IMG/VR virus record: IMGVR_UViG_3300014839_001263
Span: 1 to 27,026 of that record
From: a virus
Reading direction: 5' to 3' (one strand)
DNA length: 27,026 bases
The stretch's first letter is position 1; each line of letters starts with the position of its first letter. Position numbers and translations under genes: made by a program. Positions 1-21,153 of the stretch are shown in pieces. The notes beneath the pieces were generated by a model that made no database searches, was not told the origin of the DNA, and saw nothing but the letters and a program-made list of their open reading frames with translations.

Positions 1-576
1 TCCATTGAATTAGTTTCTGCGGCACGGAAAGATCCAGCAGCATTTGACGAGGAGCTTGCAAAAAAGGCAAACCTTGAAAATTTGGATCAATTAAAGGACA
101 ATATCAATAAACAAGTTGATCAATATATTGGCGAGATGAGATTTAATGTGTTACAATCAATTACAATTGATAAGTTGATTGAACTAAACGAAATTAATGT
201 GCCAGAGTGGATGACAACGAATACAGTTAGAGACACGCTTGCGATGCAAAAGAAGGATATTGCAACAATTTCTGCGGAAGAAAAGGAATCTTTAATTAAA
301 GAAACGGTTAAAAATATAAAAGCGGCGTTTATAGTTGCTAAAATTAAAGAGTTAGAAGTTGATACGGTTTTATCAGAAAATGAAATGCTTAAAATTCTGG
401 AAGCAAACATGAGTAAACTTCCAGAAAATATTCAAAAGGAATTGACGCAAGGGAAAAACATGGCATTATATTCAAAAATAATGAATGATATTCAGAATGA
501 GTATGTAATTAAATGGGTAATTGAACATGCGCAAATTAGTGCAAAGAAACAAGAAGAAACAGTTGTAAAGGAGTAA
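1..576 (+). CDS. Trigger-factor-like chaperone, C-terminal part (5' end outside window)
   Basis: The frame is open from the first base, so this is the last 191 residues of a longer protein. A TTG at 82 is a possible but unlikely start, because similarity to the family begins upstream of it. The pattern matches the C-terminal substrate-binding domain of bacterial trigger factor. It has a DEELAKKANLENLDQLKDNI segment equivalent to the linker after the PPIase domain, then the hallmark IDKLIELNEINVP (a Leu-Ile/Val-Glu, Asn, Ile-x-Val-Pro pattern), then long helices ending in a short charged tail. Trigger factor normally binds the ribosome near the exit tunnel and shields nascent chains. The ribosome-binding and PPIase domains would lie left of the window, so their presence is unknown. 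The family call rests on pattern recognition. A phage-encoded copy is unexpected, and a DnaJ is encoded about 9 kb downstream. Confidence 0.8.
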   Translation, partial: SIELVSAARKDPAAFDEELAKKANLENLDQLKDNINKQVDQYIGEMRFNVLQSITIDKLIELNEINVPEWMTTNTVRDTLAMQKKDIATISAEEKESLIKETVKNIKAAFIVAKIKELEVDTVLSENEMLKILEANMSKLPENIQKELTQGKNMALYSKIMNDIQNEYVIKWVIEHAQISAKKQEETVVKE

Positions 577-581
577 TCAAT

Positions 582-884
582 ATGGCAAGAATTAAAAAAA
601 GTTTTGATACGAATGGCTTTCCAGAGAAGTATTATAAGCAACTTATGGGAAGCGCAATTATGGAGGATTTTGATGGGCTGGATGAGGAAGCTTTAAAGAA
701 AGCCATTGTTGAATCAGAGACTTCGATAGAAGAGGTTGAGCAGGAAAGAGATAAGGACGAGAAACTTAAATCGGTAAAAGATGACATGAAGCTTTTATCA
801 AAGGCATATTCGGATACAAAAAAGTTTCAAAATGCCAAGATTAAATACGCATTATTCTGTCTTGAGAAGAAGGGGAAACTTTAA
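582..884 (+). CDS. Small charged hypothetical protein, 100 aa
   Basis: The ATG follows an AAAGGAG ribosome binding site at about 567-573 that lies inside the end of the preceding gene, so the two are probably co-translated. The product is highly charged, and its middle and C-terminal parts look helical and probably coiled coil, with Glu/Lys-rich heptad-like spacing from about residue 35 to 95. It has no signal peptide, membrane segment or cysteine cluster. Small helical proteins of this kind are common beside phage replication genes, but no family or function can be assigned. The next gene is in the same frame, separated from it only by the TAA stop and one further codon. Confidence 0.75.
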   Translation: MARIKKSFDTNGFPEKYYKQLMGSAIMEDFDGLDEEALKKAIVESETSIEEVEQERDKDEKLKSVKDDMKLLSKAYSDTKKFQNAKIKYALFCLEKKGKL

Positions 885-887
885 AAT

Positions 888-1175
888 TTGTTAAAGTCAA
901 ATACAAAAACTTGCGGTGGTAAATTGATTATTAGTGTCTTTTTACCAAAAGCAATAAATAAAAATAATTTGTATTTGATGAAAAATCTTGGGTTTTCCTG
1001 GTCAGAGCGCTTATTGAAAAACGGATTACTTTCACTTGATGATAAAACTATAATGATTTCTGGATCATTATCAAATCGAATAATTTCCATTTATTGTATT
1101 GGTTCATTAAGTGAAAGTGATTGCAAAAGCTACGTGGATAAGAAGTTGGAAGAAATTAATAAAATGTTGCAATAA
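888..1175 (+). CDS. Hypothetical protein, 95 aa, TTG start
   Basis: The TTG start is supported by an AGAAGGGGA ribosome binding site at about 868-876 and by the lack of an ATG before residue 27. The protein is a mix of predicted strands (LIISVFLP near residue 13, TIMISGS near residue 50, IISIYCIG near residue 59) and helices, and it ends in a Lys/Glu-rich helix. It looks like a small soluble alpha/beta domain. No known family is recognised. It is the last gene before a hairpin-containing gap and the polymerase gene. Confidence 0.65.
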   Translation: MLKSNTKTCGGKLIISVFLPKAINKNNLYLMKNLGFSWSERLLKNGLLSLDDKTIMISGSLSNRIISIYCIGSLSESDCKSYVDKKLEEINKMLQ

Positions 1176-1225: not shown

Positions 1226-4200
1226 ATGCAAAATTATATTTCATTACATAATAGTACTATTTTTTCGATAATGAATTCAATCATTAAGCCGGCTGATTTA
1301 TTTAAACGAGCTGCCGAATTGGAAATGAGCGCGGTTGGAGTTGTTGATAATTTTTCATTGGCGGCAATATCTGATTCTTATAAAGTGGCGAAAACATCAA
1401 AAGTAAAAATGATTGTTGGCTGCCAATTAAATTTTGTGGATGCTTTGATTCCATTTTATGAATTTAATTCCGGAAAAGTTAAAGAAAAGCCGACTGAAAA
1501 GATAAAAAATATTGTTTTGATTGCAAAAACCCAGCTTGGGTATAGGAATCTTCTTCTTTTAAACAAAGCCGGATTTGATTGTCGATTAGGGAGGTTGCCG
1601 CTTATTGATTGGCGGCTTTTGGAAAAATATAAAAATGATCTTATTTGTTTAACCGGGGATGCTTGCGGAATTCTCGGAATGAATATAAGTAATGGAAATT
1701 CTGAGAAAGCAAAAGAAGATGCCATTAAATTAAAAAATATATTTGGCGATGATTTGGCATTGGAACTGATTCCGAATAATCTTAAATATAATGGATGTGA
1801 TCAATTTGCGGTTAATAGATATTTATTTAAATTATCAACCGAGTTGGAAATTAAAGCGATTGCAGCGAGCAATGCGAAATACCTTTATAAGGAGCAGCAT
1901 AAGGTTCATGATTTGGTAATGGCAATTAAGCATGGGCGAAGCCTTGGGGATAAAAGCCGTCCAAGATTTGAGTTTGAGCAATTATATTTGCATAGCGCGG
2001 AAGATATTATAAAGTTTTTCACAAGAAATTTTGGGGTGGATTTTGCGAATTCATTATGTGAAAATACCATTTATTTCGCGGATAAATGCGAAAAACCAAA
2101 TTGGGTTAAACCAGATTTTATAACCGGGGACAAATCGCAACTACCAACTTTCCCAGTAAAAGATGATGAGGATTATTTAATTTTTAAAAGCTGGCTTGAA
2201 AATCAATCTGATAAAATTAAAAAGATTGATGAAGATAAACAGTTTATGAGATTTAAATGCCAGAAGGACTATGATAAATTAATCCCCACAGGTAAGGAGA
2301 AAATTTATAAAGATAGAATGGATAGGGAATTAGAAGTTTTTGAGGCGCTGGGCTTCTCCTCTTATATGTTGATTACCCATGACTTTATAAATTGGGCGAG
2401 GAAACAAAAAATTCCTGTTGGTCCTGGGCGGGGATGTTTAGTTGGAGAAACTTTGGTTTTAACTGAAAATGGTTTTAAACAATTAAAAGATATAAATGTC
2501 GGAGATAAAGTTTATACACATACAGGACAATTACAAAACGTTTTGAATAAATTTGAATTTGATGTTGCCAATAATGAGGATTTGTTGGAGATAAAAACAG
2601 AGCTTTCATTTGGGAGAACGTCTTTAACAAAAGAGCATTTAGTATATGGTTGCAAAAAAACATTAAAAAGTATAGATGAAATAAATAATTGTGAAAATCA
2701 AAAAATTTGGGAGGGCACTTCTAAAAAAATAAAATTTGTTGATCCTGAATGGATCAAGGCTGAAGATTTAAATATTGGCGATTATGTTTATACAAAATTT
2801 CCTAAAATTAATGAAACGCCGAAATATGAGCAAATTTTTGATTTGGCAGATTTTGCAAAACCTAAAAATATTTGTAATGATAAAATAAGAATAGAAAATA
2901 AAATTATTAATAATTTATCTGTTAGAGAAGTGTCAAGACAAACAAAAGTGCCATTTGAAGCTGTAAGGCGAGCTAAAAATAAGATTTTAAAAAATGAAAC
3001 TCAATTAAATTTAGTAAAAAATTATCTTGATGAAAATAATATATCATTAAATGATTGGATTGCCTTACCTAAATTTTCTTATTATTATATAGATAGGTAT
3101 ATACCAATTACTGATGATTTTTTATATATATTAGGTCTATGGGTTGGTGATGGTTGTTTAAGAAGTCTTAATTCCGGTTTAAATTATGCTTTTCATATTA
3201 ATGAAAAAGAAATTATTGAAAAAACTCTATTATTTTATACAAATTTAGGACTTAATATACATGGTAGAACATCTGACAGTAATTGTTGGTCTTGTGATAT
3301 AGGCACTTATTTGTTTGGCGAATTATTTAAATTATTATTTCCATTTTATAAAAGGTCATCTTATACAAAACATTTGCCATTATTTTTTAGGAAACTAAAT
3401 AATAATCAACTTATATGTTTAATCAAAGGCGTTGAAGATAGTGATGGGTATATTAATGGCACATGTGAAAGTATTAAAACTACTAGCTTACAATTAGCTG
3501 AAGAATTAAAAGAATGTTTTGATAAATTAAATATTCCTTGTGGAGTATTAATTGATAAAGCAAATGATACACACGGAAGAAATAATGCGACTTCTTATTT
3601 GATAAGATTTTCTGGAATAAATACTCCTTTAAAAAACAATTATATTTATAATAACGGATATTATAGCAAGATAATTGGTATTGAAAATTGTATAAATAAT
3701 AAAGTTTATGATATTACTGTGGAAAATGATGCGTCATATTTAACTTCTTCTGGAATTATGCATAATAGTGTTGGTGGTAGTATTGTTGGATATTCCCTCG
3801 GTATCCATATGGCTGATTCGATAAAATATGGTTTAATTTTTGAGCGATTTCTTAATATGGATAAACGAGAATTTCCTGACATAGATAATGATTTCGACTC
3901 TGAAGGGCGGGAGAAAGTTCTTTCATATGTAACGGAAAAATATGGTAAGGATTATGTTGCGCATGTAAGCAATTTCATGACATTCACGCCAAAAGTTGCA
4001 ATTACAGATGTCATTACGAGTCTTGAAATTGGAGGAAGCCGGCAGGATGCTTTTAAAATTGCAAAAAACATAACTGAAACAATAGATGCTGGCGCTAAAA
4101 CAATGAAAGATGCGCTTGCAAGCTCCAAATTATTCGCTGAGTTTTGCAAGGAGCACCCAGAAATTTTAGAATACGCAGAGCCTTTGCTTGGTGTCATTAG

Positions 4201-6022
4201 AAGCTACGCTACTCACGCAGCCGGAGTTGTAATTGGGAAATATCCTTTACCAGGGCTTGTTCCTTTGAGGCTTGATGATAACGGTGTGGTAGCGTTGGAA
4301 TGGGAGAAAACAAGGGCGGAAGAAAATGGTTTGGTTAAAATTGACTTTCTTGGCTTGGAAACTTTGAATGTTATTAAAAATACTAACGCTATTATTAATT
4401 CCTTAAATGAACCAGAACCAGAAAACCCTCCAAATTTTGATAAGAAATATCCAGAAGTTTATGATTTAATCACGAATGGCAAAACGTTTGGAGTTTTTCA
4501 ATTGGGAGCTTCTGGCGGAACAATTGGTTTATGCAATATGACCCAACCAAAGAATATTGAGGATATTGCTATTATTAATGCGCTAGCGCGCCCAGGCGTG
4601 CCTAGCGATATTAAAAAGTCATTTATAGATAGAAAGCTTGGAAATGAAAAAATAGTTATTCCTCATCCTAATTTGAAACACGCAGTAGAAGCAACATTGG
4701 GATATTGCGTTTTTGAGGAATCGTTCATGTTTCTTGCGCATGATTTCTGCGGCTGGGATCTTCAAAAATCCGATAAAATGCGCAAAATTTCAAAATTAAA
4801 AGCGAAGGGCAAACAGATATTAGAGGAACTGCAGGAGGACTTTATTAAATCATCATGTGATTATTCAAAAGTTAAACCTGAATTTGCGAAAAAGATATGG
4901 GATGAATGGATAATTCCGCTTTCTGGATATGCATTTAATAAATCACATTCCATACTTTATTCAATGACATCATTGCATACGGCATATTTGAAGGCATACT
5001 ATCATAATGAATTTATGACTGCGAACTTAATATCAGAAACACATAGTAATTCGCCGGCTTCAAAGGAGAATATATTAAAAATTAGGCATGAATTACGGAA
5101 AGCTGGGGTTAATATATTGCCGCCAAAAATTAATGATTCGTTTACAAATTATCGGTTAATCGATAAAAATACATTGATTACCGGTATGGCGGCATTACAT
5201 GGAGTTAAAGCTCCAGCCGCCGAAAATATTATGGCGAATAGACCATTTGCAAGCTTTGAGGACCTTCTTTTAAGGACGGATGCATCAAAGGCAAGGGCGC
5301 CAACAATACAAGCAATGGCAGCCTGTGGGGCTCTGGATTGCTTTGGGCTAAGTAGGAAGGCGATGTATACCTATTGTAGTGATTTGCGAAAAAAGAGCAA
5401 AACTTGGCATGAAAGAAATCCTGATAAGAAATTTGAATATTCATTACCGACTGAGGAATGGACAATTGGTGAGATTAGGGCTTTTGAAACGCATTTTATT
5501 GGGGAAGCGCTTTCTGGCAATAAAACAGATTCATTTCCGGATTTATTTTCTGGACACAGGGCGGTTTCATTAATTTCAAAAGTAATAACACTTCCAGAAA
5601 AAAACAATGTTGTTATTGAAGGTGAAGTTATAGATATGTTTACATTTAAGGTTAAAAAGCCTGATAGTAAGATATACGGGCAGGAATGTTGCAAGATGTT
5701 AGTTGAAGACATTAATAATGACCAAGTAAATGTTGTGTTTTTTCCTGACCAATATAAACGATTGAAATATTTGTTTGAGGAGACACTTAGCGAAAAATTT
5801 GAAAAAGGTTTTGGAATTAGAGTTTCTGGAAACACATCTAAATTTGGAAATGATACATCTATTATAGCTTCGGATGTTTACGGGTTATTTGAACCAATTG
5901 GACTTCCAGCGGATCTCACCCAAAAAAAGATAAAGCTATTAACTGTTAAAAACAAAAAAATCAAAGAAGTAACAAAAGAAGATGTTGAAGACGAATTAAT
6001 GATAATAATTAATGAAAATTGA
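1226..6022 (+). CDS. dnaE: DNA polymerase III alpha subunit (DnaE type) with intein
   Basis: This is the replicative DNA polymerase. Without the intein (residues 404-847) the extein is 1154 residues, close to bacterial DnaE (about 1160). It has an N-terminal PHP domain, the palm motif GPGRG...GGSIVGYSLGI, the catalytic PDIDNDF (Asp885 and Asp887), the third catalytic Asp in VKIDFLGL (Asp1040), the FNKSHS motif, a helix-hairpin-helix region (ITGMAALHGVKAPAAENI), and a C-terminal OB-fold-like part. Polymerase active-site residues are intact. The PHP domain is degenerate: HxH became HNS, TDH became VDN, GCE became GCQ, and NDxH became NAK. It is therefore unlikely to bind metal or proofread. The ATG at 1226 has an AAAGGA site just upstream. 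No separate exonuclease or clamp is visible in the window. It ends with TGA, one of only two such stops here. Confidence 0.96.
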   Translation: MQNYISLHNSTIFSIMNSIIKPADLFKRAAELEMSAVGVVDNFSLAAISDSYKVAKTSKVKMIVGCQLNFVDALIPFYEFNSGKVKEKPTEKIKNIVLIAKTQLGYRNLLLLNKAGFDCRLGRLPLIDWRLLEKYKNDLICLTGDACGILGMNISNGNSEKAKEDAIKLKNIFGDDLALELIPNNLKYNGCDQFAVNRYLFKLSTELEIKAIAASNAKYLYKEQHKVHDLVMAIKHGRSLGDKSRPRFEFEQLYLHSAEDIIKFFTRNFGVDFANSLCENTIYFADKCEKPNWVKPDFITGDKSQLPTFPVKDDEDYLIFKSWLENQSDKIKKIDEDKQFMRFKCQKDYDKLIPTGKEKIYKDRMDRELEVFEALGFSSYMLITHDFINWARKQKIPVGPGRGCLVGETLVLTENGFKQLKDINVGDKVYTHTGQLQNVLNKFEFDVANNEDLLEIKTELSFGRTSLTKEHLVYGCKKTLKSIDEINNCENQKIWEGTSKKIKFVDPEWIKAEDLNIGDYVYTKFPKINETPKYEQIFDLADFAKPKNICNDKIRIENKIINNLSVREVSRQTKVPFEAVRRAKNKILKNETQLNLVKNYLDENNISLNDWIALPKFSYYYIDRYIPITDDFLYILGLWVGDGCLRSLNSGLNYAFHINEKEIIEKTLLFYTNLGLNIHGRTSDSNCWSCDIGTYLFGELFKLLFPFYKRSSYTKHLPLFFRKLNNNQLICLIKGVEDSDGYINGTCESIKTTSLQLAEELKECFDKLNIPCGVLIDKANDTHGRNNATSYLIRFSGINTPLKNNYIYNNGYYSKIIGIENCINNKVYDITVENDASYLTSSGIMHNSVGGSIVGYSLGIHMADSIKYGLIFERFLNMDKREFPDIDNDFDSEGREKVLSYVTEKYGKDYVAHVSNFMTFTPKVAITDVITSLEIGGSRQDAFKIAKNITETIDAGAKTMKDALASSKLFAEFCKEHPEILEYAEPLLGVIRSYATHAAGVVIGKYPLPGLVPLRLDDNGVVALEWEKTRAEENGLVKIDFLGLETLNVIKNTNAIINSLNEPEPENPPNFDKKYPEVYDLITNGKTFGVFQLGASGGTIGLCNMTQPKNIEDIAIINALARPGVPSDIKKSFIDRKLGNEKIVIPHPNLKHAVEATLGYCVFEESFMFLAHDFCGWDLQKSDKMRKISKLKAKGKQILEELQEDFIKSSCDYSKVKPEFAKKIWDEWIIPLSGYAFNKSHSILYSMTSLHTAYLKAYYHNEFMTANLISETHSNSPASKENILKIRHELRKAGVNILPPKINDSFTNYRLIDKNTLITGMAALHGVKAPAAENIMANRPFASFEDLLLRTDASKARAPTIQAMAACGALDCFGLSRKAMYTYCSDLRKKSKTWHERNPDKKFEYSLPTEEWTIGEIRAFETHFIGEALSGNKTDSFPDLFSGHRAVSLISKVITLPEKNNVVIEGEVIDMFTFKVKKPDSKIYGQECCKMLVEDINNDQVNVVFFPDQYKRLKYLFEETLSEKFEKGFGIRVSGNTSKFGNDTSIIASDVYGLFEPIGLPADLTQKKIKLLTVKNKKIKEVTKEDVEDELMIIINEN
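2435..3766 (+). mobile_element. Intein with LAGLIDADG homing endonuclease inside the polymerase
   Basis: The in-frame insert of 444 residues runs from Cys404 (CLVGETLVL) to a terminal His-Asn (SSGIMHN), with Ser848 as the +1 extein residue. Removing it rejoins GPGRG to SVGGSIVGYSLGI, the conserved DnaE palm motif. Splicing blocks are visible: the Cys1 block, a block B with TKEH, and a C-terminal VYDITVEN block ending in HN. Two endonuclease motifs, LGLWVGDG (Asp642) and KGVEDSDG (Asp740), mark a LAGLIDADG enzyme with both acidic residues present, so it may still home. Hand counts of three 60-base lines in the insert give about 18-20% GC, against 30-50% for three lines in the flanking extein, which suggests separate origin. 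The boundaries are firm from extein continuity. Confidence 0.95.
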
Positions 6023-6058: not shown

Positions 6059-6727
6059 ATGAAATGTTTAAGTTGCGGGATCGAAATCCCACCCCAATGG
6101 GTCAATGCTTTAAAAAATAATAGTTGCCCCGCGTGTGGAAAAGAAATTATGAGCAAGGATATTCAGGAACTAATTAATGGTTTATCTGAAGCTCTTGAAA
6201 AAATGCCAAATAATCCACAAGGAATTGCTTGTTGGATTACATCAAATTATAAATTAGAAAAAATTGCTGATTATGAGCCAACACAATTTACTACAGCTAA
6301 AAAGCCCGGTAATATAAATAGAAACGCGACAAATTCCGAGCAAAAAACCGCTGTTGAAAAGTTTTTTGAACGGGCGCAAGTAAATCTCGCTGAAATTCCA
6401 AGCAGAAAAGCGAAGGTTCCACCGCAGGTTAAAACCATGGATGATATTGAGGGTGATGACCAGGACGTTGTTGAAGCTGATGGAAACGAACCACTTGATG
6501 AAATTGATAGGATGATTTTAAATGGTAATGGTGGCGGCTCAATGTCTGATGATGAAAAAGATGCAATTGCTTCGGTTATTCAAAATGCAAAATTTGGGTC
6601 GATGGAAAATAATTCTTATTTGAATGAGTCAATGGAAAAACAAAAGCAACGACAGGAAAATATTGCTAACGGAATCGGGGCAACAAGTAGAAGTGGAAAG
6701 CCAGCTGGTTTTAGAAGGGCTGATTAA
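6059..6727 (+). CDS. Zinc-ribbon hypothetical protein, 222 aa
   Basis: The start ATG has a strong AAGGAG site at about 6046-6051. The N-terminus holds two Cys pairs, CLSC (Cys3, Cys6) and CPAC (Cys23, Cys26), spaced as in a zinc ribbon. A helical segment follows (IQELINGLSEALEKMP). From about residue 80 on the chain is charged, low in hydrophobic residues and probably disordered, with an acidic stretch (DDIEGDDQDVVEADGNE) and a Gln/Arg-rich end. Such a layout suits a nucleic-acid or protein adaptor, but no family is recognised. It lies between the polymerase and a cluster of small genes leading to the single-strand-binding protein, so a replication-linked role is a reasonable inference only. 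Confidence 0.7.
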   Translation: MKCLSCGIEIPPQWVNALKNNSCPACGKEIMSKDIQELINGLSEALEKMPNNPQGIACWITSNYKLEKIADYEPTQFTTAKKPGNINRNATNSEQKTAVEKFFERAQVNLAEIPSRKAKVPPQVKTMDDIEGDDQDVVEADGNEPLDEIDRMILNGNGGGSMSDDEKDAIASVIQNAKFGSMENNSYLNESMEKQKQRQENIANGIGATSRSGKPAGFRRAD

Positions 6728-9128: not shown

Positions 9129-9704
9129 ATGCAACAACTATTAGTAGGATTAGACATTTCAACAACAACTATTGGATTTTCAGCAGTAGTTATTGAAAAT
9201 GATAAAATAATAAATATTGATTATTCATATTTTAAACCAAATAAAAAACTTGGGCAAATAAAAATGCTTATAGACGCGAAGAATCATATCATTTCAATGA
9301 TTGATAAATCCGCAAAAAAATATGATTTGGAGCCAATAATTTGCGTTGAGGATATTTTGGTTTTTGCAAGCAAAACCACAACGAGAACACTAACAGTTTT
9401 ATCCGCAGTAAATCGGGTTATATGTGTTGCCGTTTTAGAAAAATATAATAATTTAAATTTATTGCCAGTAGCAACAATAAGGGCGTCTATAAGGAAACTT
9501 GCTCTTGAAAAAGAAAGAATACCAAAGGAAGATATTCCCGCAGCAATTGAAAAAATTATGCAAAAACATATAAAAAATTGGAAATTTGATTGGGAATTGA
9601 ATAAAAACGGCAAGATTAAACCGGAAAATATGGATAAAAGTGATGGGATTGCGGTTGCATTCGCCGTTGCTTATAAAAAGAAATTAATAGTTGAAGGGAA
9701 ATAA
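9129..9704 (+). CDS. RuvC-like Holliday junction resolvase
   Basis: The product has 191 residues and an RNase H-like nuclease fold. It starts with GLDISTTTIGFS, in which Asp9 matches the first catalytic acid. A second acid is in ICVEDI (Glu74), and the DxxD pair is in MDKSDGIAVAFA (Asp169, Asp172). All four carboxylates of the RuvC family are therefore present with the right order and spacing. RuvC enzymes cut four-way DNA junctions. In a phage this would resolve recombination or replication branches before packaging. The ATG has an AAGGA site. The next gene begins one base after its stop, so it is coupled to DnaJ and then RecA. A related structure-specific nuclease role is possible. Confidence 0.85.
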   Translation: MQQLLVGLDISTTTIGFSAVVIENDKIINIDYSYFKPNKKLGQIKMLIDAKNHIISMIDKSAKKYDLEPIICVEDILVFASKTTTRTLTVLSAVNRVICVAVLEKYNNLNLLPVATIRASIRKLALEKERIPKEDIPAAIEKIMQKHIKNWKFDWELNKNGKIKPENMDKSDGIAVAFAVAYKKKLIVEGK

Positions 9705-9705
9705 T

Positions 9706-10752
9706 ATGACGAGAGACGAGGCATTTCAAACGCTTTCATTAAATGAATCTTCAACGGAAGATGAAATTAAAAAAGCATTTAGGAAACAAGCCGCAGAAAA
9801 CCATCCAGATAAACATGAAGACAAAATTGCGGCGGAAGCAAAATTTAAAAAAATTAATCAGGCTTACCAAATATTAACCGGAAAGGAAAAGTCTGAAGAC
9901 CAAATGATGAATAACAATTTTGCATATGATTATGAAACGAATATGCAAGAAATTTTAAATAATTTTATGGGCGGCGGAAGAAGCCCATTCAATATACATT
10001 TCCAGCAACAGCATCAAAATAATTCAATTCATATGGATGATGTTTATGTTAATTTAAATTTGACATTTGAGGAGTCAGTTTTGGGCTGCGAAAAAAAACA
10101 TATTGCATATAAAATACAAGTTTTTTGCGAAACATGCGCGGCAAGTGGGCTTGATCCAAATACAAAAGGAAACTGTCAAACATGTAAAGGAACAGGTTTT
10201 CTTAGAAAGCAAATAGGTGGTGCCGCATTTATTAGAATAGAACAGGTGGTTTGTTTGGCTTGTCAAGGTAAAGGTTCAACTGGCGAAAAATGTAAGGCTT
10301 GTAATGGGGAGAAATTCTCCACTGAGGAAGTTTCTATAAATTTAAAGGTTCCAGCCGTTGGTGAAAGGCAAGCTAAACTTTTAGTCAAAAGCAAGGGCAA
10401 TAAGTTTAAAACATTAACAACAGATGCTTATGTTATAATAACACCGACTTTAGAAGGAGGCGGTATTTATAAAAATTATTATATAGAAGGAAATAAAGTT
10501 CGCTCGTCTATAAATGTTACCCTTGATAAATTACTGTTTGGCGGAAAAGCAATGATAAAAACAGTTTGTGGCGAAGAGAAAGAAATTGATATTCCTGCCC
10601 AAACAAAAGTTAATGATGAAATTATAATAAAAAATTATGGAGTTAAAACAGCAACAGTCGGGAATCACATAATTACTGTTGAAGCAAAATATCCGGAAAA
10701 AGAAAAACTTACAAATGAATTAAAGGATTTATTAGAAGCCGCATATAAATAA
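9706..10752 (+). CDS. dnaJ: DnaJ-type co-chaperone (type I, zinc-containing)
   Basis: The ATG at 9706, with GAAGGGAA upstream, is chosen over an in-frame TTG at 9691 that overlaps the resolvase. The 348 residues have a J domain (1 to about 62) with the essential HPD (33-35). A short Gly/Phe-Gln segment follows (about 88-107). Four CxxC pairs come next (Cys141/144, 157/160, 183/186, 196/199), two of which keep the full CxxCxGxG form. The rest is a C-terminal substrate-binding beta region. This is a complete type I Hsp40, which stimulates DnaK ATPase and can hold clients. No DnaK or GrpE is in the window, so it presumably works with the host's. Its place between resolvase and RecA suggests a role in replication complex remodelling, by analogy with phage lambda's need for host DnaJ. 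Confidence 0.95.
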   Translation: MTRDEAFQTLSLNESSTEDEIKKAFRKQAAENHPDKHEDKIAAEAKFKKINQAYQILTGKEKSEDQMMNNNFAYDYETNMQEILNNFMGGGRSPFNIHFQQQHQNNSIHMDDVYVNLNLTFEESVLGCEKKHIAYKIQVFCETCAASGLDPNTKGNCQTCKGTGFLRKQIGGAAFIRIEQVVCLACQGKGSTGEKCKACNGEKFSTEEVSINLKVPAVGERQAKLLVKSKGNKFKTLTTDAYVIITPTLEGGGIYKNYYIEGNKVRSSINVTLDKLLFGGKAMIKTVCGEEKEIDIPAQTKVNDEIIIKNYGVKTATVGNHIITVEAKYPEKEKLTNELKDLLEAAYK

Positions 10753-13247: not shown

Positions 13248-13727
13248 GTGGCAGATAGAAATTCAAATCATTCGACTGGCTACCAAGTATTCATTATGGA
13301 AATTGCAGTAAACCCATTTGTGTTAAATGACTTATCTTCAGCACAAGGAATGACGTATCGAATGCGCCCGGAGAAATATGATGAAATGTTTTTAGATTTA
13401 AAAGCAAGATTAATCGCGAGAATGTGGGAACTTGTTGAATTACATTTAACGAAAAGACAAAAACAAGTTCTTAAACTTTCAATGGAAGGTTTTACCCAAA
13501 ATGAGATTGCAAAGAGATTAGGCATTAATCAGACAAGTGTCCATAAAGTGCTCCGGGGTAATATTGATTATAAATATAAAAAAGAGGGCAAAGATGGTAA
13601 AGAAAGCGGTTGTTGTCGTAGATATGGCGGTGCTTTTAAAAAAATTACAAAAGTTTGCGATGCTGATGCTGAAATTAGAAATATTTTAAGAGAAATTAGA
13701 GAAATACAGGAATGTCTGGAATTCTAA
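13248..13727 (+). CDS. Sigma-region-4-like helix-turn-helix regulator
   Basis: The GTG start is chosen for the AGGAGAAAA directly before it. The 159-residue product has a helix-turn-helix at about 67-103 (LTKRQKQVLKLSMEGFTQNE, then IAKRLGINQTSVHKVL). Its wording is that of sigma factor region 4 and LuxR-type domains, with the typical L-T-x-R-Q-x-x-V-L-x-L opening. The N-terminal part has no region 2 signature, and the C-terminal part has a Cys-Cys pair (GCCRRYGGAFKK) and a charged helix. It may be a phage transcription factor that recruits host RNA polymerase to late genes, since the morphogenesis block begins just downstream. The last 16 bases overlap the homing endonuclease gene. Function is inferred from the helix-turn-helix only. 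Confidence 0.75.
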   Translation: MADRNSNHSTGYQVFIMEIAVNPFVLNDLSSAQGMTYRMRPEKYDEMFLDLKARLIARMWELVELHLTKRQKQVLKLSMEGFTQNEIAKRLGINQTSVHKVLRGNIDYKYKKEGKDGKESGCCRRYGGAFKKITKVCDADAEIRNILREIREIQECLEF

Positions 13728-14581
13728 AAAAAGAAGCTGACAATATTTGTTCAATTTATTTATTAACAAATACAGTTAATGGAAAAGTTTATATTGGGCA
13801 AACTTGGTTATCATTATCCAAACGTAGTGGGAAAAATGGTTCCAACTATAATAATAGTATATATTTATATAACGCGATAAAAAAATATGGCATGGATAAG
13901 TTTGAATATCAAATTTTAGTCCAATGTCTTGATCAGGAGGCTGCTGATTATTTAGAAGACTATTTTATGGAAAAATATAATAGCAGAAATGTTCATGTTG
14001 GTTATAATATAAAAAAAGGCGGTAGCGCTGGTAAGCATTCAGAAGAAACAAAAGCTAAAATTTCTGAAACTTTAAAAAATAAAGAATGGTCTCCAGAGGC
14101 TCTTTTTAATAGGGCAGAGGCTGGTCGGCAATGGAAAGGCAAAAAACGCGAACCACAAAGTGAAGAAGTAATTCAACATCATGTTGAAGCTATGAAGAAA
14201 TGGCACGCCGAACACGAACATCCAATGTTGGGAAAGCATATGTCTGAAGAGGCAAAAATTAAAATAAGTGCAGCTAATAAAGGCAAAAAATTATCCGATG
14301 AACATAAAGAGAAATTGCTCGAAGCTCACAAAATGGATATTGATAAAGAACAAGCAATTATTAATTTGTATCAAAACGGAGAAACTATCGAAAATATAGA
14401 AACGCAACTTAATACAAAAAGAAGCAGCATATATAGAGTATTATTTCGGAACAATATTCCGGCAAAAAGAGACCATAAAATTTGGTTAGGCAAAAAACAT
14501 TCAGAAGAAACAAAACAAAAGATGTCTGATGCTAGAAAACAATATTGGAAAATTAAAAGTGGGCAAAGAAAGATTGAGTAA
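13712..14581 (+). CDS. GIY-YIG homing endonuclease with NUMOD repeats
   Basis: The product has 289 residues. The nuclease domain starts with SIYLLTNTVNGKVYIGQTW (14-32), the GIY-YIG signature with Tyr16 and Tyr27. The expected Arg (Arg38), catalytic Glu (Glu82, in DYLEDYF) and Asn (Asn99, in VGYNI) are all present. The C-terminal part has several NUMOD3-like DNA-binding repeats (GKHSEETKAKISETLK at about 107, KHMSEEAKIKIS at about 175, KKLSDEHKEKLLEAHK at about 194, KKHSEETKQKMSDARK at about 265). A helix-turn-helix-like segment lies between the last two. It is a selfish gene that would cut a specific DNA site and spread by repair. It overlaps the 3' end of the sigma-like gene by 16 bases, so that gene may be its target or its hitch-hiking site. 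Confidence 0.93.
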   Translation: MSGILKKEADNICSIYLLTNTVNGKVYIGQTWLSLSKRSGKNGSNYNNSIYLYNAIKKYGMDKFEYQILVQCLDQEAADYLEDYFMEKYNSRNVHVGYNIKKGGSAGKHSEETKAKISETLKNKEWSPEALFNRAEAGRQWKGKKREPQSEEVIQHHVEAMKKWHAEHEHPMLGKHMSEEAKIKISAANKGKKLSDEHKEKLLEAHKMDIDKEQAIINLYQNGETIENIETQLNTKRSSIYRVLFRNNIPAKRDHKIWLGKKHSEETKQKMSDARKQYWKIKSGQRKIE

Positions 14582-20415: not shown

Positions 20416-21153
20416 ATGAAACTACGTGAATTATTAGATGTTGTTTCTGATACTGCAAAGGAAAATAAGTTTTCCACGCCATATATTGTTGGCGGATTTA
20501 CCAGGGATTTAATTTTAAAAAAAATAGATGACGTTAAAGATATAGATATTACTTGCGGTGATGAATCTAGTTTATTACTTGGGCAAAAACTTGTTCAAAA
20601 ACTTGAAAATTCAACCCTTTTAACTTTTAGCGATGGACACAGTAAACTAAGTTATGGTAATCTTTCATTGGATTTTTCCAATAATTTTAAAGTTCCTGAT
20701 ATAAAAAATATCTTAAAATCTTTAAATGTTTCAGATTTAAAGCCAATATATGAGGAAATTTATAGCCGAGATTTTACTGTAAATACCTTATTGCTTCCAC
20801 TTGATCTTTCCACAATTCTAGATATAACCGGCAAAGGTATAAACGACATTACCAATAAATTATTGGATACGTGCCTTGCCCCGGAAATTACTTTAAAAAA
20901 TGATCCAAAAAGGATAATTCGGATAGTTTATTTGTGCGCAAAATTGGGGTTTAATCCGCATGACAGGATTGTCGCTTGGGTTCAAAAAAACGGGCAACTT
21001 CTTTCCAAAGTTAATAGTAAATATATGAAAACCAATATAAACAAAGCTTTCATTTCTAATAAGGAAAATTCAATAAATTTAATTTCTTTATTAAATATTG
21101 AAAAATATATACCAGAAACAGCTTTAATGATGGATGCGTTATCAGGAATTTAA
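20416..21153 (+). CDS. tRNA nucleotidyltransferase / poly(A) polymerase-type protein
   Basis: The 245-residue product carries the head-domain signature of class II CCA-adding enzymes and bacterial poly(A) polymerases. It has YIVGGFTRDLILKK (GG at 26-27, Arg30), DIDIT (Asp42, Asp44), a third acid in LSLDFS (Asp86), YSRDFTVNTL (Arg118, Asp119, Asn123), the ILDITGKGINDI motif, and NDPKRIIRI (163-169). All catalytic residues are present. Such enzymes add CCA or A residues to RNA 3' ends. At 245 residues it lacks much of the usual body and tail (about 400 in bacteria). It is set among morphogenesis genes, with its stop overlapping the next start. Possible roles are repair of tRNA 3' ends during infection or tailing of other RNA; specificity cannot be read from sequence. 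Confidence 0.87.
   Translation: MKLRELLDVVSDTAKENKFSTPYIVGGFTRDLILKKIDDVKDIDITCGDESSLLLGQKLVQKLENSTLLTFSDGHSKLSYGNLSLDFSNNFKVPDIKNILKSLNVSDLKPIYEEIYSRDFTVNTLLLPLDLSTILDITGKGINDITNKLLDTCLAPEITLKNDPKRIIRIVYLCAKLGFNPHDRIVAWVQKNGQLLSKVNSKYMKTNINKAFISNKENSINLISLLNIEKYIPETALMMDALSGI

Follow-up and report, generated by a model that had tools for sequence, protein, structure and literature searches.

A trigger factor gene beside DNA polymerase III alpha in large uncultivated phages

The stretch of DNA studied here, called the window throughout, comprises positions 1–27,026 of the viral record IMGVR_UViG_3300014839_001263 in IMG/VR (27,026 nucleotides) and begins inside a gene for trigger factor (TF), the ribosome-exit chaperone of bacteria and the first chaperone that a nascent chain meets. 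The open reading frame (ORF) at its left end has 191 codons, contains no upstream stop and runs open to the contig edge, with its 5′ part lying beyond that edge. A preliminary description, made from the letters alone, had recognized the C-terminal substrate-binding domain of TF in this ORF from two motifs, NLENLDQLKDNI and IDKLIELNEINVP, both of which are present. Our analysis confirmed that the ORF encodes the C-terminal domain of TF together with the last strand of the peptidyl-prolyl isomerase (PPIase) domain. The features of the window are collected in Table 1.

Sequence and structure of the trigger factor fragment

The NCBIfam model TIGR00115 (tig) matches residues 2–173 of the fragment at model positions 226–409 of 410 with E 2.4e-11. 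Its 43 bits fall well short of the 180 bits that the model requires of a whole protein, which is expected because only part of the protein is present. With Pfam Trigger_C the match was weak (20.2–20.4 bits, under the cut-off of 22.7) and was seen only after the protein had been trimmed. When 32 full-length phage TFs, described below, were combined in a profile, the fragment scored 106 bits (E 1.3e-32), no other ORF in the window was matched, and 12 bits was the highest score among 1000 shuffled fragments. Since 106 bits stand against 12 for the best shuffle and the tig model also matches, the TF observation is real and well above chance. By sequence alignment the fragment starts at residue 234 of the E. 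coli TF, within the last PPIase strand, which takes up approximately residues 1–10 of the 191. The preliminary description had placed both the ribosome-binding loop and the PPIase domain outside the window: the N-terminal half is indeed off the contig, but the last PPIase strand is inside. The fragment shares only ~15–27% identity with its relatives, and the substrate-binding domain ~14% with that of the E. coli TF. The fragment had no match in PHROGs, and used directly as a query it retrieved no relatives from GenBank phages or from the viral contigs. Beyond the left contig edge, DNA of the same virus was searched for by exact match; nothing was found, and the N-terminal half of the window TF could not be recovered.

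Structure prediction led to the same assignment. The AlphaFold2 model of the fragment, calculated from an alignment with 32 relatives, has a mean predicted local distance difference test score (pLDDT) of 89 and shows an all-helical C-terminal domain. In a Foldseek search of the PDB the first three ranks were all bacterial TFs (3gty, 2nsa and 1w26; probability 1.00) with E-values of 0.02–0.19, which are modest for the fragment alone and were not relied on by themselves. VIA-align superimposed the model on residues 236–423 of the E. coli TF 1w26 with a Z-score of 10.6, above the unrelated structures; next in rank came other TFs and the TF-like protein MPN555. Taken together, AlphaFold2, Foldseek and VIA-align identify the fold of the C-terminal domain as that of TF. 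A search of BFVD found no similar viral structure, an absence that is weak evidence.

Full-length relatives and their lineages

Relatives were reached through the terminase of the window, which led to 80 viral loci, and then by scans with the TF proteins found there. TF was present in 8 of the 50 terminase-linked records searched, and seven of these eight proteins pass the whole-protein tig cut-off. At least 37 related viral contigs of large uncultivated phages (19–473 kb, several near-identical pairs among them) encode a full-length TF of ~400–470 amino acids (aa). A terminase of the window's family is found on 27 of the 37; the contigs lacking it are mostly short fragments. RecA and the protein at 6059–6724, used as queries, found nothing. 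All 37 relatives share the gene order of the window and carry the N-terminal and PPIase domains. Among the four relatives tested, the Pfam cut-offs were passed by all for Trigger_N and Trigger_C and by two for FKBP_C. The phage TFs are 20–30% identical to bacterial TF and are matched over most of their length by phrog_26774, a PHROGs family with no function assigned (E 2e-47 to 6e-30). For the full-length relative L110 the structural model (pLDDT 87.6) best matched the E. coli TF 1w26 and its ribosome-bound form 2vrh (E ~1e-21 to 1e-23), and FKBP folds were matched as well.

Residues were counted in 32 phage TFs aligned with the E. coli protein, whose numbering is used. The PPIase pocket residue F198, which matters for isomerase activity, is retained in 31 of 32. 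The docking loop G[F]RxG[K] is likewise kept: G43 and R45 are present in every sequence, F44 in 28 and G47 in 31, and position K48 is occupied by K or R in 31. The motif GFRxGxxP is responsible for ribosome binding at Rpl23 (PMC9527764).

A quick, unrooted tree was calculated from 65 sequences. In it the phage TFs formed a group A that includes the window (support 100) and a group B (support 100), and a branch with support 99 split them from 34 cellular TFs, a set covering few phyla (Pseudomonadota and unverified GenBank records that are mainly gut and Gram-positive-like). On these sequences the phage TFs form lineages of their own, distinct from the cellular TFs included; with so few phyla sampled, the tree does not prove a single origin. 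The ratio of non-synonymous to synonymous substitutions (dN/dS) is 0.05–0.13 in four informative TF pairs and of similar order in the rest; among more distant pairs dS becomes saturated. The phage TF protein is under long-term purifying selection.

Gene neighbourhood and viral origin

Table 1. Features of the window (positions in nucleotides)
Feature	Position	Strand	Basis
3′ part of phage TF gene: last PPIase strand, linker, C-terminal substrate-binding domain	1..576	+	profile matches, AlphaFold2 model
Gene 2, small helical protein, function not assigned	582..884	+	iterative profile search; no Pfam match
Gene 3, small protein, function not assigned	888..1175	+	iterative profile search
DNA polymerase III alpha (PHP, NTPase, finger, HHH), intein-interrupted	1226..6022	+	Pfam, synteny
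DnaJ (J domain, CXXCXGXG zinc domain, C-terminal domain)	9691..10752	+	Pfam
Sigma-70 region 4/LuxR-like helix-turn-helix protein, directly before the GIY-YIG gene	13248..13727		
GIY-YIG endonuclease with NUMOD3 motifs, likely homing endonuclease	13712..14581		
tRNA nucleotidyltransferase-like protein (PolyA_pol head domain), possible CCA-adding enzyme	20416..21153		

The succession of TF, gene 2, gene 3, polymerase and, later, DnaJ in the window is that of its relatives. TF lies ~2.3 kb or less upstream of DNA polymerase III alpha in all 37 loci; gene 2 follows it in 28 of 29 group-A phage loci as well as in the window, and gene 3 stands between TF and the polymerase in the window and in 35 of the 37 loci, in both phage groups. 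DnaJ is encoded on 34 of the 37 TF-bearing contigs, and in the relatives whose coordinates were compared it is found ~8–13 kb past TF, matching the window. Sequence, structure and synteny thus bear out the suggestion of the preliminary description that a phage-encoded TF C-terminal domain shares a gene cluster with DnaJ. A gene for HSP70 (DnaK) was absent from all 18 larger related records and a gene for uL23 (L23) from all 37 TF-bearing contigs; the phage chaperones would therefore need the host's DnaK and the host's ribosome.

Group-B phages (L091–L098) carry, in the place of gene 2, an unrelated protein of 125–128 aa with two similar halves and no Pfam match. In several group-A phages a gene resembling M41 (FtsH-like) peptidases lies between TF and the polymerase (L110, 7864–8544; L087, 3243–3914); its product has the motif HEAGH and no obvious AAA domain, and its Pfam score is weak (24.9 bits against a cut-off of 29.9). 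Other genes fill the slot upstream of the polymerase in several related phages that lack TF. At positions 4194–5814 of L177 (the contig of L007, with a terminase close to the window's) what appear to be endonuclease-like and TnpB-like genes stand in the place of genes 2 and 3, as judged by eye, and the genes upstream of the polymerase there reach the contig end. The intein of the window's polymerase (approximately residues 402–850, within the NTPase domain) is made up of splicing and Hint domains and includes a LAGLIDADG-like part; in several relatives the polymerase ORFs of this family are longer or split. The closest PHROG to the window's DnaJ is phrog_14336, with no function assigned.

Bacterial TF genes mostly adjoin clpP and clpX. 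The window TF adjoins DNA polymerase III alpha and has neither of them alongside. The window contig also encodes a terminase and a portal protein; since the record is viral and the gene order after TF is common to related phages, the left end does not belong to a host chromosome; had it done so, the preliminary description would have counted its proposal as refuted. Scanning genome contigs with a single phage TF as query returned only two ordinary cellular TFs. TF hits in GenBank records labelled as phage were rejected, as they look like host contamination and most have clpP or clpX beside tig; one example, an Acinetobacter record, is annotated tig-clpP-clpX.

Proposed function and comparison with known systems

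It is likely, in our judgement, that the gene whose 3′ end lies in the window encodes a full-length phage TF, which docks on the host ribosome and chaperones phage nascent chains. Such a protein would bind at uL23 through its G[F]RxG[K] loop and arch over the exit tunnel, where it may shield nascent phage polypeptides from aggregation during high-rate synthesis; large replication proteins and virion proteins are its presumed clients. Chains needing further help could pass to host DnaK via the phage DnaJ. Because the docking site is the same, the phage protein would also compete with host TF, or replace it, during infection. More tentatively, and with slightly less than even confidence, we propose the wider picture of an old, virus-specific TF lineage in the conserved replication cluster of large phages, whose members occupy host ribosome exits, act as first chaperone for phage chains and hand these over via phage DnaJ to host DnaK.

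Several observations weigh against this proposal. Within group A the docking motif is variable at positions K46 and P50, and N replaces F44 in two phage TF lineages. The docking loop of the window TF itself lies off the contig and is assumed from relatives with ~15–27% sequence identity. Finally, many phages with related terminase and polymerase have no TF: the gene marks a subset of related phages, and it is therefore not essential to the wider group.

The best surviving alternative, although an unlikely one, is that phage TF is independent of the ribosome and serves as a chaperone for assembly or as a holdase, with or without its N-terminal domains. Cellular TF has off-ribosome activity, the Thermotoga structure 3gty (‘folding and assembly activities’) is among the top matches of the fragment, and the neighbouring polymerase is a plausible client for a chaperone of virion or replication proteins. 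However, the solitary C-terminal domain acting in assembly, as entertained in the preliminary description, is disfavoured: the fragment starts inside a PPIase strand with its frame open at the contig edge, and all 37 relatives that share the gene order are full length. Less probable still is a role mainly in translation take-over, in which phage TF would displace host TF, perhaps also the signal recognition particle or deformylase, from the tunnel exit and so steer the processing of host nascent chains. The docking motif shared with host TF and the diverged substrate-binding domain are consistent with this, but purifying selection has preserved both that domain and F198 in the PPIase pocket, and a pure competitor would need neither. 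That a TF piece of a bacterial chromosome was joined to a viral contig by host contamination or misassembly at the contig edge, as the tig-clpP-clpX neighbourhoods of TF genes in GenBank ‘phage’ records might suggest, is extremely improbable, given that the window TF clusters with phage and not cellular TFs, that phage genes follow it in the same order in 37 independent viral contigs, 27 of them with terminase, and that no clpP or clpX lies beside it.

The conserved and syntenic TF gene of these phages opens a test of viral control over co-translational folding, and the phage proteins offer naturally diverged variants for the study of ribosome docking and client choice. Among the genes already described from phages are those for ribosomal proteins, translation factors, deformylase and chaperones of the DnaJ and GroEL type. 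Among GenBank phages we found no comparable TF gene beyond the host-like hits, and a literature search, confined to open-licence papers whose supplements might list one, brought to light no published phage TF.

Compared with bacterial TF (tig; E. coli 1w26, Thermotoga 3gty), the phage relatives have the same N-PPIase-C order of domains and the docking loop, and the C-terminal fold is that of the window fragment. Unlike its bacterial counterpart, whose neighbours are clpP-clpX, the phage gene adjoins DNA polymerase III alpha, and the proteins belong to separate lineages. The family phrog_26774 covers the phage TFs but not the window fragment itself. Huge phages encode S21, L7/L12, initiation and elongation factors and deformylase, and the main text of the paper on them names no chaperone and no TF (PMC7162821); the products of these translation genes also act on the host ribosome, and deformylase, like TF, acts on nascent chains. 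The moraphages carry the chaperones DnaJ, DnaK and Hsp20, with TF not named in the text of the paper (PMC12619734). Like the phages described here they are large, uncultivated and equipped with host-like chaperones including DnaJ, whereas in our phages DnaJ occurs without DnaK and together with TF.
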